36,670 nucleotides of DNA. Source: Myxococcales bacterium. Lineage in GTDB: Bacteria; Myxococcota_A; Polyangia; Fen-1088. The stretch spans positions 1 through 36,670 of the forward strand of contig JANXXE010000042.1 in NCBI GenBank assembly GCA_025350815.1. Reading direction: 5' to 3'. Below the pieces are notes generated by a model. It did no database searches, was not told the origin of the DNA, and was given only the letters and a program-made list of their open reading frames with translations. Position 1 is the first letter of the stretch; every line of letters begins with the position of its first letter. This document shows positions 5,037 to 36,017 of this stretch, one piece after another. Both the position numbers and the translations under genes were made by a program.

Positions 5037-5438
5037 TCAGACGGACGCGCAGGGGGGCGAGTTCTTGGGCGCGATGCGGATGACGGCCACCGACCGCCGA
5101 AGGGCGGCATCCCGGCGATGCGAAAGCTGATCGCGGGCAACCGGTGGGGGCGACGGCATCGTCGCGTTGGTTCGTGACGGAATCGAGTTCCGACGCTGCA
5201 CCGCCACCGCCAAACAATGATCATCGTTGTCCCGGTCGTCCGGGTCGGCGACGTCCAGTCGCGACTCCAGCGACGAATCCGCGCCTGGGCTGACCGTTCG
5301 CGGGGTGGCCTGGTGGATGATCTCGTCGTGCTCGGGACAGGTGGCGTGGCGCACGAGGGCCATGTGCGCAAAGCCCAAAAGGTACGCCGCCAGGCAGACG
5401 GCGGCCGTGGCCGTGGCCGTGGAGAAGACGCGCGTCAT
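5037..5438 (-). CDS. Small signal-anchored protein with Cys/His residues, possible metal-handling partner
   Basis: A 133-residue protein begins MTRVFSTATATAAVCLAAYLLGFAHMALV, a signal peptide or membrane anchor, and continues with HATCPEHDEIIH and, further on, DDHCLAVAVQ. The rest is polar and Arg/Pro-rich with no recognised domain. It lies about 100 bases upstream of the metal-transporter ATPase on the same strand, so a role in periplasmic metal handling is possible. That is inference from position and Cys/His content only. The start at 5438 puts the hydrophobic segment at the N-terminus; an AGGCAGGAT-like sequence precedes it. It might instead resemble small DUF2946-type exported metal-associated proteins, but the match is not convincing. 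Confidence 0.5.
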   Translation of the reverse strand: MTRVFSTATATAAVCLAAYLLGFAHMALVRHATCPEHDEIIHQATPRTVSPGADSSLESRLDVADPDDRDNDDHCLAVAVQRRNSIPSRTNATMPSPPPVARDQLSHRRDAALRRSVAVIRIAPKNSPPCASV

Positions 5439-32166: not shown

Positions 32167-32194
32167 TTGACAAGGTCCGGGTCATCATGAGAAT
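32167..32194 (+). promoter_or_regulatory. Predicted sigma-70-type promoter of the iron-type operon
   Basis: TTGACA at 32167-32172 is a perfect -35 hexamer. GAGAAT at 32189-32194, 16 bases later, matches the -10 consensus at four of six positions. Transcription would start near 32201 and run into the ATG at 32258. The -10 lies inside a Fur-box-like palindrome, so a bound regulator would block polymerase. Confidence 0.55.
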
Positions 32195-32207
32195 GATTCT
32201 GATTGTC
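32189..32207 (+). promoter_or_regulatory. Fur-box-like operator
   Basis: The 19-base sequence gagaatgattctgattgtc matches the classic 19-base Fur consensus (gataatgataatcattatc) at 14 positions by direct count. A second AT-rich gatt...aatc inverted pair continues to 32213, so two overlapping dimers could bind. It stands out from the GC-rich surroundings and covers the predicted -10. Zur or Mur are alternatives within the same regulator family. Confidence 0.6.
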
Positions 32208-32257
32208 ATAATCAGTACGTCCCCCTCAACCACCTCCACTTGTTCGGAGATCTCACC

Positions 32258-33055
32258 ATGACTTTCACCCGCAGCCTCGCGTTGGCCGTCATCTCGTCCT
32301 TTGTGCCCCTGGGGGTGTCCCTCGCCCTGGGCAACGAGCGGCACTTCACCTACACCTATGAAAGCGCCGTGCTGCCCAAGGACGGGCGAGAGATCGAGGT
32401 GTGGACCACGCCGGGCCTGGGCCGCGACCACTTCTACTCCCGGTTCGACGAGCGGGTGGAGTTCGAGGTCGGTCTGACGGACCGATTGCAAACCTCCCTC
32501 TATCTCAATTTCGGCGCACTGACCGCCGAGACCATGCCCGGCATGCGGCAGTCCTCGGTCGAGTTCCAGGGCATCTCGTCCGAGTGGAAGTACAAGCTGA
32601 GGGATCCGGTTGCGGATGCGCTGGGGTCGGCCCTGTACGCGGAGCTTCTGGCGGGGCCCACCGAGGTGGAGCTGGAGGCAAAGCTGATCGTAGACAAGCG
32701 AATCGGCAAGGTGCTTCTTGCAGCAAACCTTGTCGGTGAGCTGGGACTGGAGTTCGAGGAAAAGGCGACCGATCCTGCGGGCGTGGTCGAGTTGGATGCC
32801 GCGGCCACCTATTCGGTGAGGCCTGGGTTGTCGCTGGGGCTCGAGCTGCGCAGCCACAACCAGATCATGGAAGAGGCGTGGCGGACGTCCGTCCTGTTTG
32901 CGGGTCCCGTGGTGGCGTACGCAGCCTCATCCTGGTGGGTGGCGCTGTCGGTCATGCCGCAGCTGCCGGCGTTGAAGAAAGAAGGCGGCGGGACGTTCGA
33001 GCTGGCCGCACACGAAAGGTTCAATGCGCGGCTGCTGTTCTCGTTTCACCTTTAG
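32258..33055 (+). CDS. Exported beta-barrel-like outer-membrane protein under a Fur-type operator
   Basis: A 265-residue protein with a signal peptide (MTFTRSLALAVISSFVPLGVSLALG). The mature part has many short alternating strands, such as REIEVWTTPGLGRDHFYSRF, VEFEVGLTDRLQTSLYLNF, LAANLVGELGLEFE and a terminal ARLLFSFHL, which ends on an aromatic followed by Leu. This fits an outer-membrane barrel of about 10-12 strands. Similar proteins are usually annotated only as transporter or hypothetical. A Fur-box-like site lies about 50 bases upstream, so induction in low iron (or another metal) is inferred. The haem lipoprotein gene begins inside its last 32 bases. The ATG at 32258 is used instead of an upstream TTG. 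Confidence 0.75.
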   Translation: MTFTRSLALAVISSFVPLGVSLALGNERHFTYTYESAVLPKDGREIEVWTTPGLGRDHFYSRFDERVEFEVGLTDRLQTSLYLNFGALTAETMPGMRQSSVEFQGISSEWKYKLRDPVADALGSALYAELLAGPTEVELEAKLIVDKRIGKVLLAANLVGELGLEFEEKATDPAGVVELDAAATYSVRPGLSLGLELRSHNQIMEEAWRTSVLFAGPVVAYAASSWWVALSVMPQLPALKKEGGGTFELAAHERFNARLLFSFHL

Positions 33056-33359
33056 CCTGATCACCGGCGCGTTGCTGGTCGGATGCGCGGGGCTGATCCC
33101 CCCACCGACCGACGCGGACGCCTTGCGCGCCTCCGCACGCTGGCCGGGCACCACCGTCGGCGCCCTGACCGAGGCGCGGAGGCTGTACATCGACCACTGC
33201 TCAGGCTGCCACAACTTGTACACCCCCGCCTCTCACCCGGCGGACAAGTGGCCCAAGCTTGTGGCCAACATGGCTGTGCGCGCGAAGGTGGACAACCGTC
33301 AGTTGGACCGGATCGCCCTGTATCTGACGGTGATGGCCGAAACCTCGCCGCCGCCCTGA
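33024..33359 (+). CDS. Mono-haem cytochrome c-type lipoprotein
   Basis: A 111-residue protein. The N-terminus (SLITGALLVGC, Cys 21) is a lipobox, so a lipid anchor is expected. A single CSGCH motif at residues 59-63 binds haem c, with Met 83 in ANMAVRAKV as a likely sixth ligand. The C-terminal RIALYLTVMAET helix is typical of small cytochromes. It would carry one electron on the periplasmic side. The start lies 32 bases inside the upstream barrel gene in another frame, so both genes are surely co-transcribed. Its presence with a Fur-type operator suggests a role in redox-linked metal handling, but this is inference. Confidence 0.82.
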   Translation: MRGCCSRFTFSLITGALLVGCAGLIPPPTDADALRASARWPGTTVGALTEARRLYIDHCSGCHNLYTPASHPADKWPKLVANMAVRAKVDNRQLDRIALYLTVMAETSPPP

Positions 33360-33596: not shown

Positions 33597-36017
33597 ATGC
33601 GTGCGCCCGGGCCACGGTCGTTGGCGGCAGCGCTGCTCATGCCGCTGCTTGGTGGCAATGCGCTGGCGGCTAGCGGCCGCCCGCCAATGTCCGCCGATCC
33701 CGACCTGCGTCTGACCGCCACCGAGGCGCCGTCGACCGTCGTGGGCCTGGGCCGTCAGGCCGTACTGACACAGCAACGGCTTGCGGCCGGGCCCGCCGTG
33801 AAAGTCAGCGTTCACGAGGCGGGCCCTGGCTGGTATCGGGTCACCGGCGCGGCCCTTGCGGCGATGGGCACAGCCAGCCCACTTTTGACGGCGGACCCAC
33901 GGCGTCTCCAGCTATTTCTGCACGGTCGCGAACAAACGATGGTCGTGCGCGCCGGTGAAGACGGCCGCCTGGACCCAGATGACAGCCTTGAGTTCTATGC
34001 GGCCGGCATGGATACGCCGTGGAGCAACGAGCACATCTACTGGCTTGTCGCCGGTGAAGAACCAGGTCGACGCGTCGGGATGGCTCTGGGCATGGGGACT
34101 GGGATCGCACCGGCTGCCGATCACACGGGCTTTCTCCACACCGTCGTGCGCCGGGACTCAAGCGCGTACTTCGCGGGGCTGCTCAATGGCGACTTGCCCA
34201 ATTTTTTTGGGCCCTTTATCGGCAAGGAGCCGGCCCAGCAGACCATCACCGTTCCCAACCCCGCCGAGCTTGCCGACGCCCAGCTTGAAGTCGCCTTTCA
34301 GGGAGTGGGTTTCGCACCCCACCAGATCTCCGTCACCTGGGGCACACGGTTGCTGGGCGCCGTTTCGTTCGCGAACAGAGCTCAAGCGTCCAAGGTGTTC
34401 ACGGTCCCGGCCGCTGCGCTTGTCCCGGGGGACAACAAGCTGATGGTCCGGGCGGAAGGGGGGCCTTCCGACACCTCCTTCGTCGACCACGTTCGTCTGA
34501 CGTACCTGCACAAGTATGTCGCGGACGACGGCATGTTGCTGTTCGACGCGGCGGCCGATGCCACCCGTCAGATCGGCGGCTTCGATTCGAAGGACATCCG
34601 GGTGTTCGATGTGACTCAAGCCGCGTCGGTGCAAGAGCTGCCGACCGTGGTATCGCCGGAGGCGCAGGGTTTTTCCGTCACGGTCAGGATCCCGGGGCCA
34701 GCGGATGGCACAGCGCCCGAACGCTCCCGGACCTTGCTGGCCGTGACACCGAAGGCCATTCGCACGCCGTCACTTGCCCCCAACCAGCCGTCGTCGTGGC
34801 ATAGCCCGGGCCTGGCGGCAGATCTCATCCTCATCACGCACCCCGAGTTCCTGGACGCGCTGGCGCCCCTGCTGGCCCGACGGCAACGCGAGGGATGGAC
34901 GCCCGCCTTGGTGACCGTCGACGATCTCTATGACGAGTTCAGCTTCGGTGAAAAGGATCCAGCCGCGATTCGTTCGTTCCTGGCCTTGCAGATGCGCGGT
35001 CGGCACGCGCCGCGGTCGGTGCTGCTGGTGGGCGACGCCACCTTCGATCCCAAGAACCTTCTGGGCAAGGGTTCGTGGGACTTTGTTCCCACCAAGCTCA
35101 TCGACACCGACGATCTCGAGACCTCATCGGACGACTGGTTCGTCGACTTCGACGACGACGGTATCCCAGAGATGCCCATTGGACGCCTGCCGGTGCGAAC
35201 CGTGGCGCAGGCGCGTGCGGTCGTTGCAAAGATAGTCGGCTTCATGCCCGGCCTGCCCGCGCAGCTCGCAGGCAACACGCTGCTGTTCGTCGGCGATTAT
35301 GATCCGCTTCCTGAACTTGATTTCGAAGGCGCCATTCGTGATATCCGCACGGCCATTCCTGCCGCCATTCCTGCCGCCCTTACGGTCGTCGAGATCTTGC
35401 GGCGTGGGCTGGGCGCGGACGCGGCCCACCGGGCTCTGGGCGAGGCCCTGATGGCTGGGCCATTTCTGGTTGACTACGTGGGCCACGGCAGCGTCGAGAC
35501 CTGGGGCGGTAGTTGGGTGCAAAGCAGTTTTCTGACGGGGATGCCCGCGGCGAAACCGATGTCGTTGCTGCTGGCCACCACGTGCCTCAACGGTTTCTTT
35601 CAGGACGTGTATACGACCAGCGTCACCGAGGCGATGCTGCTGGCGCCCACCGGCGGCGCAGTGGCCGCCATCGGCTCGTCGAGCCTGGGTGAGCTTGCGG
35701 ACCAAGTTGTCCTCAGCCGCGAACTGCTGCGCATGACCCTGCAAGAGGGTTTGCCCCTTGGCCTGGCGTTGCAGCGTGCGAAGGCCGCGATCAAGGATCG
35801 TGAGATCCAACAAACGTACATGCTCTTCGGTGATCCTTCGGCCCGCCTGGTGACCGTCTCCCCGGGAGCGGCCCTGGTCATTGAGGACGCCGCGCCGCCC
35901 GCCGTCACCGTCGGCTGCAGCGTCGCGGGAGCCCCCCACAAGGCACCGGCCGCCGCGTTCTGCCTGGGATCTGCGGTCGGGCTTTGCGCGATGCTGCGCC
36001 GCCGCCGGCGCCGGTGA
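33597..36017 (+). CDS. Gingipain-like (C25) cysteine protease with MYXO-CTERM-like tail
   Basis: An 806-residue secreted protein with a signal peptide (SLAAALLMPLLGGNALA). The N-terminal ~400 residues are beta-rich. The C-terminal half is a caspase-fold C25 peptidase: VLLVGDATFDPKN, DDWFVDFDDDGIPEMPIGRLP, catalytic His 630 in VDYVGHGS and Cys 663 in ATTCLNG, and a closing YMLFGDPSARL. The last 35 residues have a Cys (about 774, VGCS), a helix and RRRRRR, a MYXO-CTERM-like sorting tail, so surface attachment is inferred. The ATG at 33597 is chosen because it directly precedes the signal peptide; the frame continues upstream as a basic, proline-rich stretch. The tail resembles that of the first gene of this window. 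Confidence 0.88.
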   Translation: MRAPGPRSLAAALLMPLLGGNALAASGRPPMSADPDLRLTATEAPSTVVGLGRQAVLTQQRLAAGPAVKVSVHEAGPGWYRVTGAALAAMGTASPLLTADPRRLQLFLHGREQTMVVRAGEDGRLDPDDSLEFYAAGMDTPWSNEHIYWLVAGEEPGRRVGMALGMGTGIAPAADHTGFLHTVVRRDSSAYFAGLLNGDLPNFFGPFIGKEPAQQTITVPNPAELADAQLEVAFQGVGFAPHQISVTWGTRLLGAVSFANRAQASKVFTVPAAALVPGDNKLMVRAEGGPSDTSFVDHVRLTYLHKYVADDGMLLFDAAADATRQIGGFDSKDIRVFDVTQAASVQELPTVVSPEAQGFSVTVRIPGPADGTAPERSRTLLAVTPKAIRTPSLAPNQPSSWHSPGLAADLILITHPEFLDALAPLLARRQREGWTPALVTVDDLYDEFSFGEKDPAAIRSFLALQMRGRHAPRSVLLVGDATFDPKNLLGKGSWDFVPTKLIDTDDLETSSDDWFVDFDDDGIPEMPIGRLPVRTVAQARAVVAKIVGFMPGLPAQLAGNTLLFVGDYDPLPELDFEGAIRDIRTAIPAAIPAALTVVEILRRGLGADAAHRALGEALMAGPFLVDYVGHGSVETWGGSWVQSSFLTGMPAAKPMSLLLATTCLNGFFQDVYTTSVTEAMLLAPTGGAVAAIGSSSLGELADQVVLSRELLRMTLQEGLPLGLALQRAKAAIKDREIQQTYMLFGDPSARLVTVSPGAALVIEDAAPPAVTVGCSVAGAPHKAPAAAFCLGSAVGLCAMLRRRRRR

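Follow-up and report, generated by a model that had tools for sequence, protein, structure and literature searches.

What do an outer-membrane barrel and a small haem lipoprotein accomplish together, and which metal do they serve? The question is raised by a locus in the window, which here means the whole stretch of DNA analysed, 36,670 nucleotides (36.7 kb) from a Myxococcales bacterium. A preliminary description of this locus suggested that the pair carries out a redox step in metal import. Its features, all discussed below, are the following.

32167..32194, plus strand: sigma-70-type promoter, TTGACA, 16-bp spacer and GAGAAT (10 of 12 positions)
32189..32213, no strand assigned: two overlapping Fur-type boxes covering the -10 element, recognised by consensus scoring and by the boxes upstream of relatives
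32258..33055, plus strand: predicted exported 12-strand outer-membrane beta-barrel of the DUF6662 family with an acidic lumen (ATG start, 265 amino acids, signal peptide; Pfam, AlphaFold)
33024..33359, plus strand: mono-haem cytochrome c lipoprotein (LLVGC lipobox, CSGCH, near-invariant W76 and M83)

Promoter and Fur-type boxes

The promoter consists of TTGACA at 32167-32172 and a -10-like GAGAAT at 32189-32194. It is the one promoter-like site found between 32000 and 33700, where shuffled sequences give 0.1 on average. The -10 element lies inside a Fur-type palindrome, just as had been described. Scored against the 19-position Fur consensus GATAATGATAATCATTATC, this palindrome matches in two overlapping frames, 32189-32207 and 32195-32213, at 14 of 19 positions on the plus strand, the figure given earlier, and at 15 of 19 on the minus strand. 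The matches beginning at 32189 and 32195 are the top Fur-consensus sites of the whole window, and a score of at least 14 on one strand occurs in about 0.7% of its GC-matched 200-bp stretches. The sole other place in the window that reaches 14 is 5213-5231, with 14 of 19 on both strands.

The genome to which the window belongs encodes one Fur-family protein. Its nearest relative among solved structures is Fur, and Fur is also nearest among NCBIfam models, at a score below strict cut-offs. A pattern search of the same genome, with a query built around the site in the window, found that site alone and is uninformative about a wider regulon.

The barrel

The gene after the promoter encodes a protein of 265 residues with a signal peptide, in agreement with the exported, beta-barrel-like product first proposed. 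AlphaFold, given an alignment of 54 sequences, predicts a barrel of 12 strands (pLDDT 91.8, pTM 0.85). This is the structure prediction of the barrel alone that had been named as a check, and it supports the barrel fold. The view that the pair has no named family did not survive a Pfam search: the cytochrome matches DHC, and the barrel matches DUF6662 (PF20367) with 34.1 bits against a cut-off of 27, the best stretch being residues 157-240. To our knowledge, no function has been assigned to DUF6662. It is the only Pfam family matched by the barrel at E values up to 1, at which the COG4313 family model is not matched.

The closest solved fold is that of FapF (PDB 5o65; Z 22.8 over 223 residues). 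The COG4313 channel (PDB 4rl8) gives Z 21.6 and an rmsd of 2.7 over 225 residues. From about residues 27-31 onward the model aligns to both chains, with an identity of about 10-12%; a sequence search of solved structures with the barrel gave no match.

Eleven glutamates, 87-100% conserved, are assigned to the inside of the barrel: E45, E47, E68, E70, E129, E136, E138, E140, E161, E163 and E196, their inward orientation being judged from strand hydrophobicity rather than from model coordinates. Such a set is the signature that one would expect of a cation-binding lumen. In 4rl8, the nearest solved 12-strand uptake channel, an N-terminal segment occludes the lumen, which is 10-12 Å wide without this plug (PMC4493636). 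By analogy, a conserved ERHFTYTYE segment of the barrel may plug the lumen in the same way. Because the N-terminal segment of 4rl8 blocks its channel, passage of ions through the barrel is not assured.

The cytochrome

The second gene, whose first 32 bp lie within the end of the barrel gene, encodes a lipoprotein of 111 amino acids with one CxxCH motif, as expected of the one-haem cytochrome c lipoprotein reported at this place. It marginally passes the cut-off of Pfam DHC (PF09626; 23.6 bits against 22.2), over profile positions 1-56 of 116. DHC has two CxxCH motifs, and the protein in the window and its aligned relatives have one. A cytochrome profile picks up the DHC structures 2fw5 and 2fwt. 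The lipobox cysteine, the CxxCH motif, a proline, a tryptophan and a methionine are each present in at least 90% of 32 aligned cytochromes, and the conserved methionine suggests a His/Met-ligated haem.

Recurrence of the pair

A scan of a contig database with the barrel of the window alone returned no relative, which would suggest a rare gene. This impression is wrong, for the same database yielded 34 loci when an alignment of seven relatives served as the query. Relatives were gathered within the order, with Pfam across the class, and then with alignments as queries. They occur in 79 of the 318 genomes of the class (E <= 0.001) and in 60 of the 379 genomes drawn from the phylum (E <= 1e-20). 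The 34 named contigs carry the labels Deltaproteobacteria/Myxococcales, Latescibacterota, Eisenbacteria, Ignavibacteria/Bacteroidota, Elusimicrobia, FCPU426, Poribacteria, Nitrospira and Limisphaerales.

The pair itself, which the preliminary description proposed to look for across genomes, does recur, in Myxococcota and at least seven further phylum-level groups. A CxxCH lipoprotein accompanies the barrel in most of the roughly 60 homologues of the first set, across phyla, and in most relatives its gene has the same orientation and starts where the barrel gene ends or overlaps that end. Several barrels are followed by diverged cytochromes of the same type that BLAST had missed. A held-out set of 34 barrels, retrieved later from further classes of the phylum and new to the analysis, has a cytochrome downstream in 21 cases, to which inspection adds L116. 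On a tree of 54 barrels, several of whose forks are weakly supported, pairing with a cytochrome is found in both main halves and the state of the partner changes six times at fewest.

Some loci are arranged differently. One genome of the class has two barrel genes in tandem without a recognised cytochrome (L084). At L015:1-9000, a single cluster holds two DUF6662-like barrels, homologues of DHOR and imelysin, and a CxxCH lipoprotein, whose counterpart in L014 (L014:5520-6293) has no match in Pfam or NCBIfam. Downstream of the pair in the window, 33597-36017 encodes a peptidase family C25 protein (E 8.6e-63) that resembles PorU-type sortases and ends in an arginine-rich tail. Elsewhere, among the loci examined, no C25 peptidase was noticed beside the pair.

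Fur boxes upstream of relatives

Conserved AT-rich palindromes upstream of homologues had been named as a further check. For each barrel, Fur-consensus scores were computed over the 200 bp upstream, and stretches of matching GC content from the same loci served as the control. Among the 60 barrels of the first set, 23 have a box of at least 13 of 19 (4.0 expected), 18 of at least 14 (1.75 expected) and 9 of at least 15 (0.33 expected), the top boxes being those of L048 (18/19) and L054 (17/19). Since related genomes are not independent, the count was repeated on the 34 held-out barrels, where 24 reach at least 13 of 19 against 4.5 expected, and 19 reach at least 14 against 3.65. The expected counts are conservative, because control windows can include parts of true boxes. 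The palindromes are far above chance in both sets. Paired copies without an upstream box also occur (L016, L018, L026 and L128-L131). As judged by scoring against the consensus, the locus has the marks of a Fur regulon, a Fur box over the promoter and its conservation in relatives.

One explanation of the pair that this regulation bears on is the oxidation or detoxification of ferrous iron, in which Fe(II) would enter the barrel and pass an electron to the haem. The design is broadly that of Cyc2, a fused cytochrome-porin Fe(II) oxidase in which an N-terminal cytochrome precedes a predicted 16-strand porin (PMC8406198), since both join a mono-haem cytochrome to an outer-membrane barrel. A cation-efflux gene adjoins one barrel (L050), which also fits. 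Fur boxes, on the other hand, predict that the genes are shut off at high iron, just where an oxidase or detoxifier would have to be made, and the neighbouring genes are import genes. We regard this explanation as quite improbable. Uptake is favoured over oxidation because Fur control implies use at iron shortage.

Metal genes nearby

Of the three metals first associated with the locus, iron, zinc and manganese, the neighbours support only iron. Genes for iron transport or its regulation adjoin several copies, and neither zinc nor manganese genes lie beside the cytochrome-paired ones. FeoB and FeoA are divergent from the pair in L027, and L029 has the same FeoB by clustering. In L038, the genes directly downstream are FeoB and a repressor of the DtxR type that carries a FeoA domain (both L027 and L038 by Pfam). 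A repressor of this kind is also found upstream in L026, and FUR-family genes are upstream in L014, L038, L044 and L051.

A minority branch in Ignavibacteria (L039, L040 and L043) has no cytochrome and is adjoined by CusA and CopZ-like copper genes. There the barrel has apparently been recruited to copper handling, and because of this branch the barrel family is not solely about iron. The same copper context, and the resemblance of Fur-family boxes to one another, could point to a general transition-metal barrel for copper, zinc or manganese, regulated by another member of the Fur family such as Zur or Mur. This appears highly improbable: the boxes reach up to 17-18 of 19 against the Fur consensus, the sole Fur-family protein of the window's genome is nearest to Fur, and it is iron genes that the cytochrome-paired copies adjoin.

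Another set of neighbours would fit a role within a larger system. In L014 a di-haem oxidoreductase (DHOR) and an imelysin adjoin the pair, and L015 has homologues of both. Clusters that combine an imelysin with a DUF1111 haem protein have been described as Fur-regulated outer-membrane candidates for iron uptake (PMC3143127). The pair could accordingly be an accessory of a ferric system linked to imelysin and DHOR or to TonB, with the barrel as a structural part or a ligand-uptake channel and the cytochrome stripping iron from chelates in the periplasm. The genome of the window does encode five TonB-receptor plug domains. Most examined pairs, however, either are solitary or have Feo or regulator genes as neighbours, and neither imelysin nor TonB genes were noticed close to them. 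An accessory role seems unlikely.

Fusion and exchange of the redox partner

In L048, from candidate division FCPU426, a DUF6662-like barrel and a CxxCH cytochrome form a single protein (L048:3963-5042) under the 18/19 Fur box. The cytochrome comes after the last strand, at the C-terminus, and lacks a separate signal. An outer-membrane barrel with an even number of strands has both termini in the periplasm, so the haem of the fusion should be periplasmic as well, which would match the placement of the lipoprotein at the inner face elsewhere. When the fusion was folded with an alignment of the barrel only, its cytochrome part had a pLDDT of about 55-66 and the model gave no usable docking.

Elsewhere the haem is replaced by a flavin. 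An FMN-binding protein (FMN_bind) takes the place of the cytochrome in L051, L053 and L055, with ApbE confirmed in L051 and L053, and L132 looks by eye to have the same arrangement. The Fur boxes of the flavin versions L053, L055 and L132 score 13-15 of 19. Some of these loci also encode a small membrane protein, and NCBIfam offers no match for its L053 and L055 copies. Because haem and flavin are exchanged while the barrel and the regulator are kept, electron transfer appears to be the job of the partner. Interchange of flavin and cytochrome domains has been documented in other systems (PMC8238504).

To which side would the electrons go? They might pass outward from the haem via the barrel and reduce extracellular ferric iron or its chelates, the resulting Fe(II) entering by ordinary porins and the barrel carrying no iron. 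The pairing of a barrel with a haem resembles porin-cytochrome conduits, and the L048 fusion and the iron-type regulation are both compatible with such a role. A single haem and 12 strands are nevertheless unlikely to span the membrane in the manner of the 26-strand decahaem complex (PMC8406198), and a glutamate-lined lumen is better suited to cations than to a cytochrome plug. An outward conduit is therefore rather unlikely.

Proposed mechanism

The explanation that we prefer, and for which we see an even balance of chances, is an outer-membrane module that acquires iron by reduction and is repressed by Fur. When iron is scarce, Fur would leave the promoter, and the barrel and the lipid-tethered mono-haem cytochrome would be made. 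The cytochrome would be anchored on the inner side of the outer membrane, facing the periplasm, and the barrel, with its glutamate-lined lumen, would admit or hold iron cations. A periplasmic electron chain would feed the haem at the periplasmic mouth of the barrel, where Fe(III) would be reduced to Fe(II). The haem is placed at the mouth because a lumen as wide as that of 4rl8 is unlikely to admit a cytochrome domain. Finally, Fe(II) would be taken in by an inner-membrane importer, which could be FeoB where its gene adjoins.

Fur-type regulation, the pairing and the association with iron are well supported. Passage or binding of iron in the barrel, reduction of iron by the haem and the direction of electron flow are what we infer. 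The redox step in import that was suggested at the outset would be of the same kind, and both the L048 fusion and the exchange for a flavoprotein strengthen it.

Several observations count against reductive uptake. In the genome of the window, weak FeoB_N matches look like other GTPases and no FeoB_C was found, so that FeoB is rejected as the partner there, and NRAMP was not found either. The copper-linked branch without cytochrome and the paired copies without a box count against it as well. Given the TonB plugs, siderophore routes may exist beside the pair, which would then be one of several routes.

A more specific proposal, a dedicated reductive iron gate, is one that we hold tentatively and at somewhat less than an even chance. 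It would consist of a glutamate-lined 12-strand channel with an interchangeable redox module, whether haem lipoprotein, fused haem or flavoprotein, at its periplasmic mouth. If it is true, many little-studied bacterial groups have a Fur-controlled route for iron across the outer membrane that is independent of siderophore receptors. For most environmental phyla, little is understood of the way in which inorganic iron gets through this membrane without such receptors, or of the place where its reduction occurs. The pair is a compact, widespread and genetically defined candidate, which predicts induction by iron starvation, reduction of Fe(III) by the lipoprotein cytochrome and essential lumen glutamates. 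DUF6662 would also gain a function if the model is true. A literature search, whose coverage mostly excluded subscription papers and preprints, found no description of the barrel-cytochrome pair and no paper naming DUF6662.

Comparison with known systems

The barrel shares its 12-strand fold with the COG4313 channel and FapF, which are linked to hydrophobic uptake or amyloid export. We know of no redox partner for either. A TonB-dependent receptor has a plug and a 22-strand barrel, and the protein in the window has 12 strands and no Plug match in Pfam.

The regulation and the partners recall two systems of iron assimilation. Extracytosolic flavinylation systems (PMC8238504) likewise have ApbE, FMN-binding partners, a link to iron and interchange of cytochrome and flavin, but the text of that paper mentions neither a porin nor a barrel, and neither DUF6662 nor the cytochrome lipoprotein was seen among the systems described. 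Fur-regulated clusters with imelysin or EfeB-like proteins (PMC3143127) resemble the pair in their Fur control, periplasmic haem protein and proposed iron uptake, and the two are linked in L014 and L015. In the part of that source drawn on here, these clusters include no DUF6662 barrel or mono-haem lipoprotein.

MtrAB and PioAB conduits also combine an outer-membrane barrel with a periplasmic c-type cytochrome. Theirs are a 26-strand barrel and a decahaem protein (PMC8406198), unlike the 12 strands and one haem of the pair, which is therefore not of the MtrAB type with its multihaem cytochrome.

The pair also resembles Cyc2 (PMC8406198), which likewise joins a mono-haem cytochrome c to an outer-membrane barrel, with iron as the proposed substrate and the haem expected in the periplasm. 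In the pair, by contrast, the cytochrome is a separate lipoprotein encoded by its own gene, or C-terminal in the L048 fusion, the barrel has 12 strands instead of 16, and the Fur boxes imply uptake. Each part is of a familiar kind and the overall plan is reminiscent of Cyc2, from which the pair differs in the number of strands, the order of domains, the separate lipoprotein and the control by Fur.
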